Source of the DNA: an uncultured Sphingomonadaceae bacterium
GTDB taxonomy: Bacteria; Pseudomonadota; Alphaproteobacteria; Sphingomonadales; Sphingomonadaceae
DNA: 64,000 bases
Assembly: GCA_947501325.1 (NCBI GenBank)
Contig: CANMVC010000002.1
Coordinates: 744,001 to 808,000, forward strand
Direction of reading: 5' to 3'
Shown: piece after piece, positions 132-3,880 of the stretch
Numbering within the stretch: the first letter of the stretch is position 1
How the letters are laid out: each line of letters opens with the position of its first letter
Notes under the pieces: generated by a model
Databases searched by the model: none
Seen by the model: the letters and a program-made list of their open reading frames with translations, nothing else
Told to the model about the DNA's origin: nothing
Translations under genes and position numbers: made by a program

Positions 132-545
132 ATGTCTCTGCTTTCCACCCTCATCGAACCCATCTCCAAAATAATCGACAAGGTCATCCCCGACAAAGAA
201 GCCCGCGACCGCGCCAAGCTGGAACTGCTCAAACTGGAGGGCAGTCAGGAAATGGAACAGGTCCGCGTCCAGATATCTGCCATCTTGGCAGAAGCGCAAT
301 CCACCGACCCCTGGACCAGCCGCGCTCGCCCGAGTTTTTTATACGTCATGTATATCTTGCTGCTCTGGTCTCTACCCATGGGTTTGATCGCCGCGATCAG
401 ACCAGAGGCAGCCCAGGACATTGCCAGCGGGATGAACGCTTATCTCGCCGGGATTCCCGAACCCCTATATGCCTTATTTGGGACAGGATATCTTGGCTAT
501 ACTGTGGCAAGACAATGGGGGAAAATACGCGGTGTCGAGAAATAG
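132..545 (+). CDS. GTA-type holin family protein (3-TM holin)
   Basis: A protein of 137 residues with a charged amphipathic N-terminal half (EARDRAKLELLKLEGSQEME) and a membrane-embedded C-terminal half. Hydrophobic stretches near residues 71-90 (FLYVMYILLLWSLPMGLIAA) and 108-128 flank a short loop. This fits the 3-TM holin family linked to gene transfer agent release. An in-frame upstream start at 81 exists, but the ATG at 132 follows AAGGA at good spacing. No capsid, tail or lysozyme genes are near, so this is a lone copy, not evidence of a prophage here. The family call rests on composition and remembered family pattern. Confidence 0.65.
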   Translation: MSLLSTLIEPISKIIDKVIPDKEARDRAKLELLKLEGSQEMEQVRVQISAILAEAQSTDPWTSRARPSFLYVMYILLLWSLPMGLIAAIRPEAAQDIASGMNAYLAGIPEPLYALFGTGYLGYTVARQWGKIRGVEK

Positions 546-609: not shown

Positions 610-715
610 TGGACAATTTCCGCCATTTTTTAAGACGACGCACAAATAGACTTGCCATGCCTACATCTTTGCAGATAGAGGGGAAAGTCTAGTTCATTCC
701 AAAGGGGATATTTAA

Positions 716-1012
716 ATGTCTAACGAAACAAGTTTCCGCAAAATGCTGGCAGTAGCCGGTGGTCTTGCTCTTGCAGTACCTGCTCTTTCAGCATGTGCCG
801 AGCAAGCTGAAGACGCTGCTGCAACAGCAGAATGTGCTGCATGTGCAGCTGAATGCGCTGCTGAGTGTGCCGCATGTGCTGCTGAATGTGCTGCTGACGC
901 GACCGGCGATGCCGCTGCTTGTGCTGCTGGCTGTGCTGCATGCGCTGCTGAGTGTGCTGCTGAAGCTGCTGGCGATGCAGCTTGTGCTGCTGCAGACGCA
1001 GTTACCGAGTAA
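716..1012 (+). CDS. Ala/Cys-repeat small lipoprotein with cysteine stripe
   Basis: A protein of 98 residues beginning with a lipoprotein signal (lipobox LSAC, Cys27). The mature part is almost entirely Ala, Cys, Glu and Asp and carries 11 more cysteines in two blocks. In the first block successive spacings are 3, 4, 4, 3 and 4; in the second 4, 3 and 4. In an alpha helix (3.6 residues per turn) each block places its cysteines on one face. The start has a strong RBS (AAAGGGG). The next gene starts 17 nt downstream, so the two are probably cotranscribed. I recognise no family. Metal binding, for instance of Cu(I) as in cysteine-lined copper storage proteins, is inference. The codon repetition could also be simple expansion. 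Confidence 0.75.
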   Translation: MSNETSFRKMLAVAGGLALAVPALSACAEQAEDAAATAECAACAAECAAECAACAAECAADATGDAAACAAGCAACAAECAAEAAGDAACAAADAVTE

Positions 1013-1029
1013 GCTAAGCTTATTCAGCA

Positions 1030-1656
1030 TTGGAAAATGCATTAGAAAGGCTGTTTGAGCTTACGGGCCAGATAGCTAAAGAGGGCGTCTCGCTAGTACC
1101 CAGAGTGGTACCGGCAGACGCCCCTTTCGTTCAGTACCAACATTATCCGAAGGGCGACTGTGTTGCACCCGGCAACAAGTCTCGCTGGTTTTACCATGCG
1201 CACAAACCCGAAGAACGGGAAGAAGGCGAACATGGCCATTTCCACATGTTCCTGCCGCTCGATATGTTCAAAGGCGTAGACGCGCTGTACGAACCACCGA
1301 AAAAATTACCCAATGGCAAACCAACCCAAGGCGTTGTCCATTTTGGTGCTTTGAGCTTTGATCTCGATGGCATGCCGCTTAGCTGGTTCACGACCAACTA
1401 TTGGGTCACTTACGAATATTTCATGCCTGCTGATGCCATAGCATCACGGCTAAAGCTATTTTCGATGAAAAACGCGCCGGGTGATCCGCTGGTCAACGAC
1501 TGGCTTACCGCCGCTGTAACGGTTTTTAACGAGCCAATTATTGACATGCTCAACGAACGGGACAAGCTGTTAGCCGAAAAGAAGGCGGAGCTTGGCGACG
1601 CTGTCTTCGAGAATAAATCGGTCGAGATCATGTCACGCCGGGCCTTCGACCTTTAA
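1030..1656 (+). CDS. DUF6969 family protein
   Basis: A soluble protein of 208 residues with no signal peptide. The conserved-looking core (YQHYPKGDCV, then SRWFYHAHKPEERE and HGHFHMFL at about residues 35-75) is rich in His and acidic residues. It matches my memory of the uncharacterised DUF6969 family. The HAH and HGHFH clusters could bind a metal, which is inference. The start is TTG, 17 nt after the stop of the Cys-rich lipoprotein; no upstream in-frame ATG fits. The pairing with a cysteine-stripe lipoprotein suggests a joint role in metal or thiol chemistry, but nothing here proves it. Confidence 0.7.
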   Translation: MENALERLFELTGQIAKEGVSLVPRVVPADAPFVQYQHYPKGDCVAPGNKSRWFYHAHKPEEREEGEHGHFHMFLPLDMFKGVDALYEPPKKLPNGKPTQGVVHFGALSFDLDGMPLSWFTTNYWVTYEYFMPADAIASRLKLFSMKNAPGDPLVNDWLTAAVTVFNEPIIDMLNERDKLLAEKKAELGDAVFENKSVEIMSRRAFDL

Positions 1657-2238: not shown

Positions 2239-3120
2239 TCAAAAAGATGCGCGGAGCGAGAGAAAGGCGCCCCGCTGATTATCAGCGGTAGCGATCGACC
2301 CCAAGTCGACATAAGCGCCAGCAACGGTCAGGTTGCGATTAATGGCATAGGCGGCAAACAGATCGAACCAGTCGTCTTCTCTGGCAATACCCAGATTGTC
2401 CGGTTTCGTTCGATATTCCCCGCCAACAACGAATTTGCGAGAAAATTGATACGCTACAGAGCCTTCAAATTGCAGCGCCCGTGCATCCTTCTGATCTCCG
2501 CCAAACCCAAGCAATCCGCCTTGATTGGCCTTGGTGTAGCGGACTGTTGCATTGGCCAATATACTTTGTGCCAGGAACAGTTTGGTAGCGCTGACATAAA
2601 AATCTGTGCCGTTGGTTTCAGCTGCACCCACCGCCCTTGCAACCTGCCCGTCGAGATTGCGCTTGTGCTGCACACCGACAGCTATTTGGGGCATATGCGG
2701 ATCGCCATATATCACATCCCCTGCCAAACGTATCTTGGCTCCGTAGACATCCTGATTAAGGCTATATCCAAATCCCAGACCCAAAGCGGCCCCGATGGAT
2801 TTTGTATTGAGATTCTGCCGCGCATAGCTGAGTTCCACACGGTCGAATAATCCGATGGCAACGCCTTGGGTATCGAGCCGATAGTCAGGCAATTCGACAA
2901 GCGTGATGTGGGCAGAGCCACCAATGCCGTCTTTCGTTGCGTTTCCTGCGATCAAACTCCAACTCGCCAGACCCCCGCCAGAAGAGCCCTCCACGGTCGC
3001 TATTCCATTTGTCAGAAGTAACTTGCCGCCAGAACGTAAATCTTCGGCAAATGCGGGTGCCGCTAAACTTACCGCGATCGCAACCGTTACCGATGTCAGA
3101 AAGAAACGTAGAAAACTCAT
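2239..3120 (-). CDS. DUF3034 family outer-membrane beta-barrel protein
   Basis: A protein of about 293 residues with a cleavable signal peptide (ending near PAFAED) and a body of alternating hydrophobic/polar strands ending in Phe (LSLRASF), typical of an outer-membrane barrel. The segment LLTNGIATVEGSSGGGLASW matches the start of the DUF3034 family as I know it. The ATG at 3120 is chosen over a TTG three codons upstream. It is transcribed divergently from the cupredoxin-like gene, sharing a ~125-bp control region, and is followed by the truncated globin gene. Substrate unknown. Confidence 0.75.
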   Translation of the reverse strand: MSFLRFFLTSVTVAIAVSLAAPAFAEDLRSGGKLLLTNGIATVEGSSGGGLASWSLIAGNATKDGIGGSAHITLVELPDYRLDTQGVAIGLFDRVELSYARQNLNTKSIGAALGLGFGYSLNQDVYGAKIRLAGDVIYGDPHMPQIAVGVQHKRNLDGQVARAVGAAETNGTDFYVSATKLFLAQSILANATVRYTKANQGGLLGFGGDQKDARALQFEGSVAYQFSRKFVVGGEYRTKPDNLGIAREDDWFDLFAAYAINRNLTVAGAYVDLGSIATADNQRGAFLSLRASF

Positions 3121-3244
3121 ATCGAGCAATGGTTTAGATATTTATGGTTAAAATAGAGCTAAGAAAAATCAACGATCGAGTACGAAGAAGAGATATTTCC
3201 GAGAGTTATCCGGTTAGTAATCATTTTTGCGTACGAGCTGTGAC

Positions 3245-3880
3245 ATGAAATATCGTTTCACAACTATGCTGGCTGGATTATTGGCCATCATTCCCGTTAG
3301 CCTGAGCTCGATTGTTTTCGGCCAGTCGTCAACCGGTGCGCGTCTGAGCATCGCCGTGAAAGACGATAACGGCATGCCGGTAAGGGATGCCGTGGTCATG
3401 GTTTATCCAGCAAAAGGCAACGGTGGCGTTGGTTTTAAATCAGGCAACGCCGTCATGAACCAGCGCAACATTCAATTTAGCCCAGGGACCATCGTCGTGG
3501 GCAAGGGAGCCACCGTAAGCTTCCCCAATCGCGACCGCGTGCGCCATAATGTCTATAGCTTTTCGAAAGCCGCGCGCTTTGAAATGAAATTATACGGCAA
3601 AGACCAATCCCGATCACGAGCATTTCCGATCGCCGGTACCGTCGCGCTGGGCTGTAATATTCATGACGAAATGAAGGGCTTTATAAAAGTCGTCGATACG
3701 CCCTATGCCGCAAAAACCAATCACAATGGCTTGGTCCAGATTGACAGCTTGCCCAGTGGATCGGCCAAGCTCAAAGTCTGGCATCCCAAAAACCGTGTTC
3801 GCAATGGCGAAACGCTTAGCAATATTGAGATAACCGGCGGCAATATCAAACAGACGGTTAAACTGGCACTTCGCAGATGA
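3245..3880 (+). CDS. Periplasmic cupredoxin-like (methylamine-utilisation-like) protein
   Basis: A protein of 211 residues with a signal peptide (cleavage near VFGQ). Residues about 75-150 carry a blue-copper-like pattern: a first His in RVRHNVYS and, later, Cys, His and Met in GCNIHDEMKG, in the order and spacing expected of cupredoxin ligands. The C-terminal part (LPSGSAKLKVWHP) resembles a carboxypeptidase-regulatory-type beta domain. Such proteins are often named methylamine utilisation protein, but no methylamine genes are here. The stop overlaps the next gene's ATG by 4 nt, so it is translationally coupled to the GGDEF-EAL enzyme and may supply a periplasmic redox or copper signal. That last point is inference. 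Confidence 0.75.
   Translation: MKYRFTTMLAGLLAIIPVSLSSIVFGQSSTGARLSIAVKDDNGMPVRDAVVMVYPAKGNGGVGFKSGNAVMNQRNIQFSPGTIVVGKGATVSFPNRDRVRHNVYSFSKAARFEMKLYGKDQSRSRAFPIAGTVALGCNIHDEMKGFIKVVDTPYAAKTNHNGLVQIDSLPSGSAKLKVWHPKNRVRNGETLSNIEITGGNIKQTVKLALRR

Follow-up and report, generated by a model that had tools for sequence, protein, structure and literature searches.

DUF6969 genes recurrently pair with genes for predicted exported cysteine-repeat proteins in Sphingomonadaceae and other Proteobacteria

The MNIO/bufferin systems are characterized by the conversion of cysteine residues to thiooxazoles or similar groups, a route that yields new copper-chelating groups. Those parts of the published account on which we draw describe the bufferins as precursors with cysteine motifs and Sec signals, some of the lipoprotein type; they state that preliminary results support the signal peptide as part of the recognition sequence, describe a Buf1–cytochrome c–FGE-sulfatase fusion and identify the Buf1 domain with DUF2282 of Pfam (PMC12452194). 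The Csp proteins, as portrayed in the part of the literature used here, are cysteine-lined four-helix bundles (PMC9484137). A further point of comparison is CefA, the "Cys-every-fifth RiPP peptide" (NCBIfam NF038108), which, going by its name, has a five-residue cysteine spacing. Here, we compare with these systems a pair of genes of which one codes for a DUF6969 protein, a domain to which the Pfam entry (PF22308) assigns no function; our literature search recovered no paper naming either DUF6969 or PF22308.

The pair lies on the forward strand of the window, i.e., the whole 64,000-nucleotide stretch from an uncultured Sphingomonadaceae bacterium that was analyzed. Its first gene (716..1012) encodes a predicted 98-residue Cys-repeat lipoprotein precursor, for which 46 distinct homologs were aligned. 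Residues 1–26 (716..793, forward strand) constitute a signal peptide with the motif MLAVAGGLA, followed by the predicted lipobox cysteine, Cys27 (LSAC; 794–796, forward strand), before which the precursor is likely to be cleaved; after export, the protein would probably be lipid-anchored in the outer membrane. The first-pass annotation had reported 12 cysteines in 98 residues with spacings of 3-4-4-3-4 and 4-3-4, which the open reading frame bears out: other than Cys27, 11 cysteines belong to the repeat part, namely those of block 1 (Cys 40, 43, 47, 51, 54 and 58; 833..889, forward strand), those of block 2 (Cys 69, 73, 76 and 80; 920..955, forward strand) and Cys90. Searches of Pfam and NCBIfam with this protein returned no family at E up to 1, in agreement with the earlier statement that no described family has this repeat, and a PDB sequence search, weakened by the low complexity of the sequence, likewise returned nothing at E up to 1. 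The lipoprotein stop codon is separated by 17 nt from the TTG start (1030) of the second gene (1030..1656, forward strand), whose 208-residue product is a DUF6969 protein (PF22308, E 3.9e-58) and a candidate maturase or loading partner. It contains both the HAH and the HGHFH clusters that had been noticed in the partner gene.

Upstream of the pair, the element TTGCCA (652–657), a 16 nt spacer and GATAGA (674–679) form a promoter-like block (652..679, forward strand) that may be read as a sigma-70 promoter; it is followed by AAGGGG (702..707, forward strand), a putative ribosome-binding site inside a conserved 5′ leader. Both the promoter-like element and the 5′ leader are retained within the genus in an upstream alignment of 22 rows, comprising the window, its own copy among the collected loci (L001) and 20 other genus-type loci, and no metalloregulator site was recognized by eye in this alignment. 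The neighboring genes upstream and downstream (window 135–545, 1720–2226, 2239–3129 and 3227–3880) include a GTA_holin_3TM gene upstream of the pair; bacterial globin-like and DUF3034 genes lie nearby on the minus strand, and a cupredoxin-like (PF00127) protein is also encoded among these neighbors.

The DUF6969 protein matches its profile over practically the full length (196.8 bits against a cut-off of 27; profile positions 2–199 of 201), with its closest relatives among named records coming from uncultured Sphingomonadaceae, Sphingorhabdus and Parasphingorhabdus. Its start-aligned codon is TTG in 21 of the 22 genome_contigs loci and ATG in the remaining one. In an alignment of 83 DUF6969 proteins, P40, H56, H58, E67, G69, H70, H72, H104 and R177 are invariant, and H38, H68, D43 and D178 are conserved in at least 90%. 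The histidine cluster H56-x-H58…E67-H68-G69-H70-F71-H72 (1195..1245, forward strand), together with H38 (1141–1143, forward strand) and H104 (1339–1341, forward strand), thus provides seven conserved histidines. The structure model is a confident one (pLDDT 94.3, pTM 0.90); comparison with the PDB gave neither a sequence match nor a clear fold match, which by itself does not establish a new fold, and we found no convincing relatives among Pfam families and no resemblance to a known enzyme. No signal peptide is visible in the protein, pointing to a cytoplasmic location.

We detected DUF6969 in 31 of 249 sampled Sphingomonadaceae genomes. In all 31, with one of the two copies in G121 considered, it is preceded by a gene with an MLAVAGGLA-like leader, the stop codon of which lies 21–268 nt before the DUF6969 match, and in 29 of them the precursor has at least five cysteines. 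Just three low-Cys precursors were seen among the 53 checked, with three cysteines in G089 and L070 and one in G120. All 22 named genome_contigs loci also feature a leader-bearing precursor next to DUF6969, with 3 to 20 cysteines. As the 46 aligned homologs were picked by a motif demanding the GG of the leader, the invariance of this GG (46/46) arises by construction, and we dropped it as evidence in its own right. When the precursor was instead picked by cysteine content only, the same reading frame, with the same stop codon, was recovered at all 50 feasible loci of the 53 examined, the other three having too few cysteines for such a pick; 41 of the frames so picked retain the GG, the leader being clipped in nine by the use of the shortest in-frame start. 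The precursors are 74–138 residues long, and a loose lipobox motif is present in 41 of the 46, the other five (L019, L033, L037, L049 and L056) resembling ordinary secreted proteins. Mean column identity is 0.85 over leader residues 8–20 versus 0.56 in the core, a difference biased upward by the leader-based choice of rows. The repeat unit itself is clade-specific, with CAACAA, GCCAAE, NPCSAKA, NPCAA, KPCAAKGCGAK and CGACSAYGC among its versions. The family thus displays the anatomy of a RiPP system: a conserved leader, a variable core and a linked gene, DUF6969, as the candidate actor on that core.

The 11 core cysteines of the window protein fall on one face of an alpha helix, as the first-pass annotation had noticed: at 100 degrees per residue, their mean vector length is 0.83, which none of 20,000 random placements reached (p = 1e-4 for block 1 and 0.008 for block 2), although these p-values overstate independence because random placement ignores the apparent origin of the sequence by repeat duplication. 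An AlphaFold2 model of the protein shows a two-helix hairpin; the predicted structure is helical, but at low confidence (pLDDT 58.6, pTM 0.34). In each of the 21 distinct genus-type homologs, the 3/4/7 register is kept: the spacings are 3, 4, 7 or 11 in 171 of 173 cases and the vector length is 0.83 or more. Another 23 family members also have five or more core cysteines; of these, just three reach a vector length of 0.75 or above, and 15 have no helical face (vector length < 0.4), with spacings of 5, 6–7 or 1+5, including Pro-containing NPCAA repeats. The first-pass annotation had held that same-site homologs without the cysteine register would count against its metal-thiolate proposal; judged by this standard, a mechanism based on the helical stripe does not hold beyond the genus group and a few relatives, the register being kept in three others and lost in those 15, while the cysteine richness and the pairing persist. 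Immediate context is better conserved, with A-x-C-A-A surrounding 194 of 194 core cysteines in the genus set and alanine at +2 of 276 of 290 cysteines in 25 other family members, against 39% alanine overall. Thus, the conserved trait is not a single fold but a density of cysteines flanked by small residues. The resemblance to Csp1 and Csp3, with cysteines along one helical face, is seen in the genus-level proteins and lost in most other homologs, the low-complexity Ala/Cys repeats and the lack of a Pfam match, in a search that such sequence weakens, being additional differences. The CefA profile matched one NPCAA-type family member (L164) at E 0.0033 and 17.3 bits, below its 30-bit cut-off and in a low-complexity stretch, and matched neither the window protein nor any of nine other proteins tested alongside.

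In samples reaching beyond the family, DUF6969 turned up in 90 of 385 genomes at the class level and in 20 of 398 at the phylum level, and it was found in none of 14 named control genomes. We examined 86 DUF6969 loci, namely a first set of 40 (33 from outside the family and seven from Sphingomonadaceae) and 46 more, stemming from slightly fewer genomes since two of these (G457 and G947) gave two loci each. Scanning stop-to-stop frames for at least five Cys motifs in 40 residues, we found a linked Cys-repeat ORF at 50 of the 86 loci, including 44 of the 79 outside Sphingomonadaceae (within about 9.5 kb). Of the first 40 loci, 27 have such an ORF, as against none of 40 control stretches, 39 of which came from the genomes of these loci and one from the genome of the window. 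The co-occurrence of Cys-rich proteins with DUF6969, for which the first-pass annotation had proposed a search, is supported. The 36 loci at which this criterion found no linked ORF include some on short contigs (e.g., L253, L260, L263 and L265), which lower the linked count, and weaker cases that it misses, such as four-Cys NPC or SPC proteins just upstream (L153 and L154) and a one-Cys homolog (L165); the genomes of unlinked loci have NPC matches elsewhere in some instances and none that we found in others.

A query with the NPC-type repeat gave matches in 44 of the 385 class genomes, of which 40 carry DUF6969 as against 10.3 expected (p = 1.1e-24, by a statistic that ignores kinship between genomes). 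In 31 of these 40, the match lies within 10 kb of DUF6969, and of the four NPC-positive genomes without DUF6969, two (G330 and G517) have matches with internal stop codons. The same query found nothing in 50 of the 90 DUF6969-positive class genomes; some of these, such as the window's genome, have other repeat types, and for others (e.g., G592, G298, G540 and G428) no Cys-repeat was found.

The linked repeats outside the family are of the NPCAAK, CGAC and other types, and some are fused to cytochromes. Of three Cys-repeat proteins whose P460-like C-terminus was compared with the Pfam cut-off of 27, one passes (L137, 39 bits) and two fall below (L136, 26.0; L158, 22.3), while three others (L150, L151 and L155) score above the thresholds for cytochrome c of the SoxA/TsdA and CCP types. 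By motif scan, 17 of the 86 loci have a gene with an FGE-sulfatase domain upstream of DUF6969 and in the same orientation (PF03781, E 7.1e-43 for the single such gene tested), and a DUF2336-type gene, of which one member was tested, follows DUF6969 at eight of the first 40. We also observed large Cys-repeat proteins with a C-terminal P460-like domain ending in CxxCH (L130, L132, L136, L138, L139, L158, L283 and others); several genes of this P460 type are divergent from an FGE-sulfatase-type gene sited before DUF6969.

Among named organisms, DUF6969 is coded by both megaplasmids of Sinorhizobium meliloti 1021, by Azospirillum plasmids and by Burkholderia plasmids (B. glumae among the matches listed). 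In S. meliloti, a frame of the APCAAGAPC type ends just before DUF6969 on pSymB (strains 1021 and ml21) and on pSymA (strain R28). This Pro-rich secreted-peptide frame (L197, L199 and L200) is absent from the gene tables examined, which are incomplete. On pSymB, sulfurtransferase and YeeE/YedE genes also adjoin DUF6969; these neighbors were not seen at the pSymA locus examined. In B. glumae, an annotated 89-residue CGAKC/CAPKC peptide ends just before DUF6969. On its plasmid pBIN_2 (L201:728-10024), the pair sits among the arsenosugar genes arsS, S-methyl-5′-thioadenosine phosphorylase and the TIGR04283 and TIGR04282 glycosyltransferases; genes for a sigma factor and a zf-HC2 protein are close by. 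The two Azospirillum loci examined, at which DUF6969 lies downstream of an Mla-type operon, have no linked Cys-repeat protein.

These organizations bear comparison with the bufferins (Buf1, Buf2 and Buf_EGKCG) and their MNIO (PF05114) and DUF2063 partners. In the parts of the bufferin account used here, as in our loci, the gene for an exported precursor with Cys motifs is followed by one for a cytoplasmic protein, and there is an occasional association with cytochrome c and FGE-sulfatase, paralleled here by the cytochrome-fused repeats and the FGE-like genes. The repeats differ: CAA, NPCAAK, CCAAEG and others in our proteins, and EGKCG or domains of four and six cysteines in the bufferins as described there. 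No curated bufferin signature of Pfam or NCBIfam was found in the window lipoprotein at E up to 1, and profile comparison revealed no similarity between DUF6969 and either the MNIO of the window's genome or its DUF2063-like neighbor. The one MNIO match of this genome is on another contig (C6) than the pair (C2). There, near 27.4 kb (L196), the MNIO gene (PF05114, E 1.3e-94) lies beside a bufferin-like exported peptide with four cysteines, and from their sequences we take its neighbors to be this peptide and DUF2063-like and DoxX-like genes. The closest approach noticed among 69 DUF6969-positive genomes tested is in G223 (contig C1, near 24.3–28.2 kb), with MNIO about 2.5 kb from DUF6969. MNIO is present in 37 of the 69 genomes and was not found in the other 32, including genomes that are 100% complete on one contig, such as G096, G142 and G208; thus, it cannot be a general requirement.

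The two genes very probably belong together functionally. Given that the anatomy, with an exported Cys-repeat precursor, a shared signal region and a partner lacking a signal, is like that of the bufferins, we read DUF6969 as a functional analog of the MNIO part. It might serve in this capacity as a Cys-modifying enzyme, to which we give somewhat less than an even chance, or, with a somewhat lower likelihood, as a loading or holding partner. Our best explanation, offered tentatively as it falls a little short of an even chance, is that of a precursor and a dedicated cytoplasmic DUF6969 partner that acts before export, with a metal buffer as the product. The signal peptide of the precursor would be of the Sec/lipoprotein kind, with its core, MLAVAGGLA, doubling as a recognition handle. 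DUF6969, as a metal-dependent protein with seven conserved histidines, would then act on the tail of Cys-[A/G/S]-A repeats while these are still in the cytoplasm; its most likely role is that of a maturase oxidizing or cyclizing Cys side chains, and otherwise it would load metal. Once exported and, in the window's case, anchored by lipid, probably to the outer membrane, the product would buffer soft metals at high capacity, copper being the most likely of them by analogy. In favor of this explanation we count the adjacency in the family, the linked Cys-repeat ORFs beyond it as against none in the controls, the NPC co-occurrence, the pairs of S. meliloti and B. glumae, the alanine context of the cysteines, the seven histidines and the bufferin parallel; against it weigh the want of resemblance between DUF6969 and any known enzyme, the 36 loci with no linked ORF by our criterion, the 50 class genomes with no NPC match, the three low-Cys precursors and the two Azospirillum loci. 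The first-pass proposal of a metal-thiolate lipoprotein with a cytoplasmic partner survives in its lipoprotein-type signal and its signal-less partner, and not in the Csp-like helix as a general principle.

Several alternatives could account for the same pairing. DUF6969 might be a metallochaperone or holding chaperone that binds the reduced precursor or supplies metal, preventing disulfides or premature folding before Sec export with no covalent modification. A His-rich protein without a visible signal peptide that repeatedly adjoins exported Cys-rich proteins fits this role, as does its tolerance of very different repeats; however, the seven histidines on or beside predicted strands, together with the invariant Glu and Arg, would suggest a fixed metal or active site rather than a shuttle, and a sequence context as strict as Cys-x-Ala points to recognition at a local level. 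We regard this alternative as somewhat unlikely. A much lower probability attaches to Csp-like storage, with Ala/Cys helices forming a Cys-lined, Cu(I)-storing bundle and DUF6969 being incidental or regulatory. The genus-type spacings and the predicted helical hairpin agree with it, but the loss of the register in most homologs outside the genus indicates that the common principle does not lie in a Csp-type bundle, many repeat types accompany DUF6969, and the window lipoprotein found no Pfam match in a search weakened by its low complexity.

The cytochrome fusions, to P460 and the SoxA/TsdA type, and the sulfur genes of pSymB would be accommodated by a sulfur or redox relay, in which persulfides or disulfides on the repeats serve the transfer of sulfur or electrons in the envelope with cytochromes as partners, and DUF6969 processes sulfur. 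We consider this marginally less probable still than the Csp-type reading: the 46 Sphingomonadaceae precursors aligned are of a length that leaves no room for a cytochrome domain, and the sulfur neighbors were not seen at the pSymA locus examined. Least probable, and in our view very improbable, is a scenario in which an unlinked MNIO acts on the Cys-repeat protein as on a bufferin-type substrate, DUF6969 being an accessory. The window's genome does have an MNIO gene elsewhere, and over half of the DUF6969-positive genomes tested have one; yet the remainder, complete genomes included, have none, and the MNIO of the window's genome adjoins its own bufferin-like gene.

Returning to the reading of DUF6969 as a dedicated partner acting before export, it may be extended to a wider proposal, in which our confidence is slightly lower. 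DUF6969 might define a class of metalloenzymes that is new, cytoplasmic, marked by seven histidines and devoid of a recognized fold relative. Its members would modify cysteines within repeats, either [A/G/S]-rich or of the NPC type, of precursors exported by Sec. These precursors, small lipoproteins at one extreme and large cytochrome fusions at the other, would form a second family of metal-buffering RiPPs in Proteobacteria, one that does not depend on MNIO.

What is new here is the link between DUF6969 and exported Cys-repeat proteins, by which a domain without an assigned function becomes a biochemical system open to testing, and which provides a setting for low-complexity Cys-repeat proteins, a kind that gene tables may overlook. 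This system parallels the MNIO/bufferin route with a protein that has no detectable similarity to MNIO. The recurrence of the pairing in many Proteobacteria, with very different Cys repeats, suggests from the sequences that these bacteria may possess a previously unrecognized route to metal-binding proteins of the cell surface.
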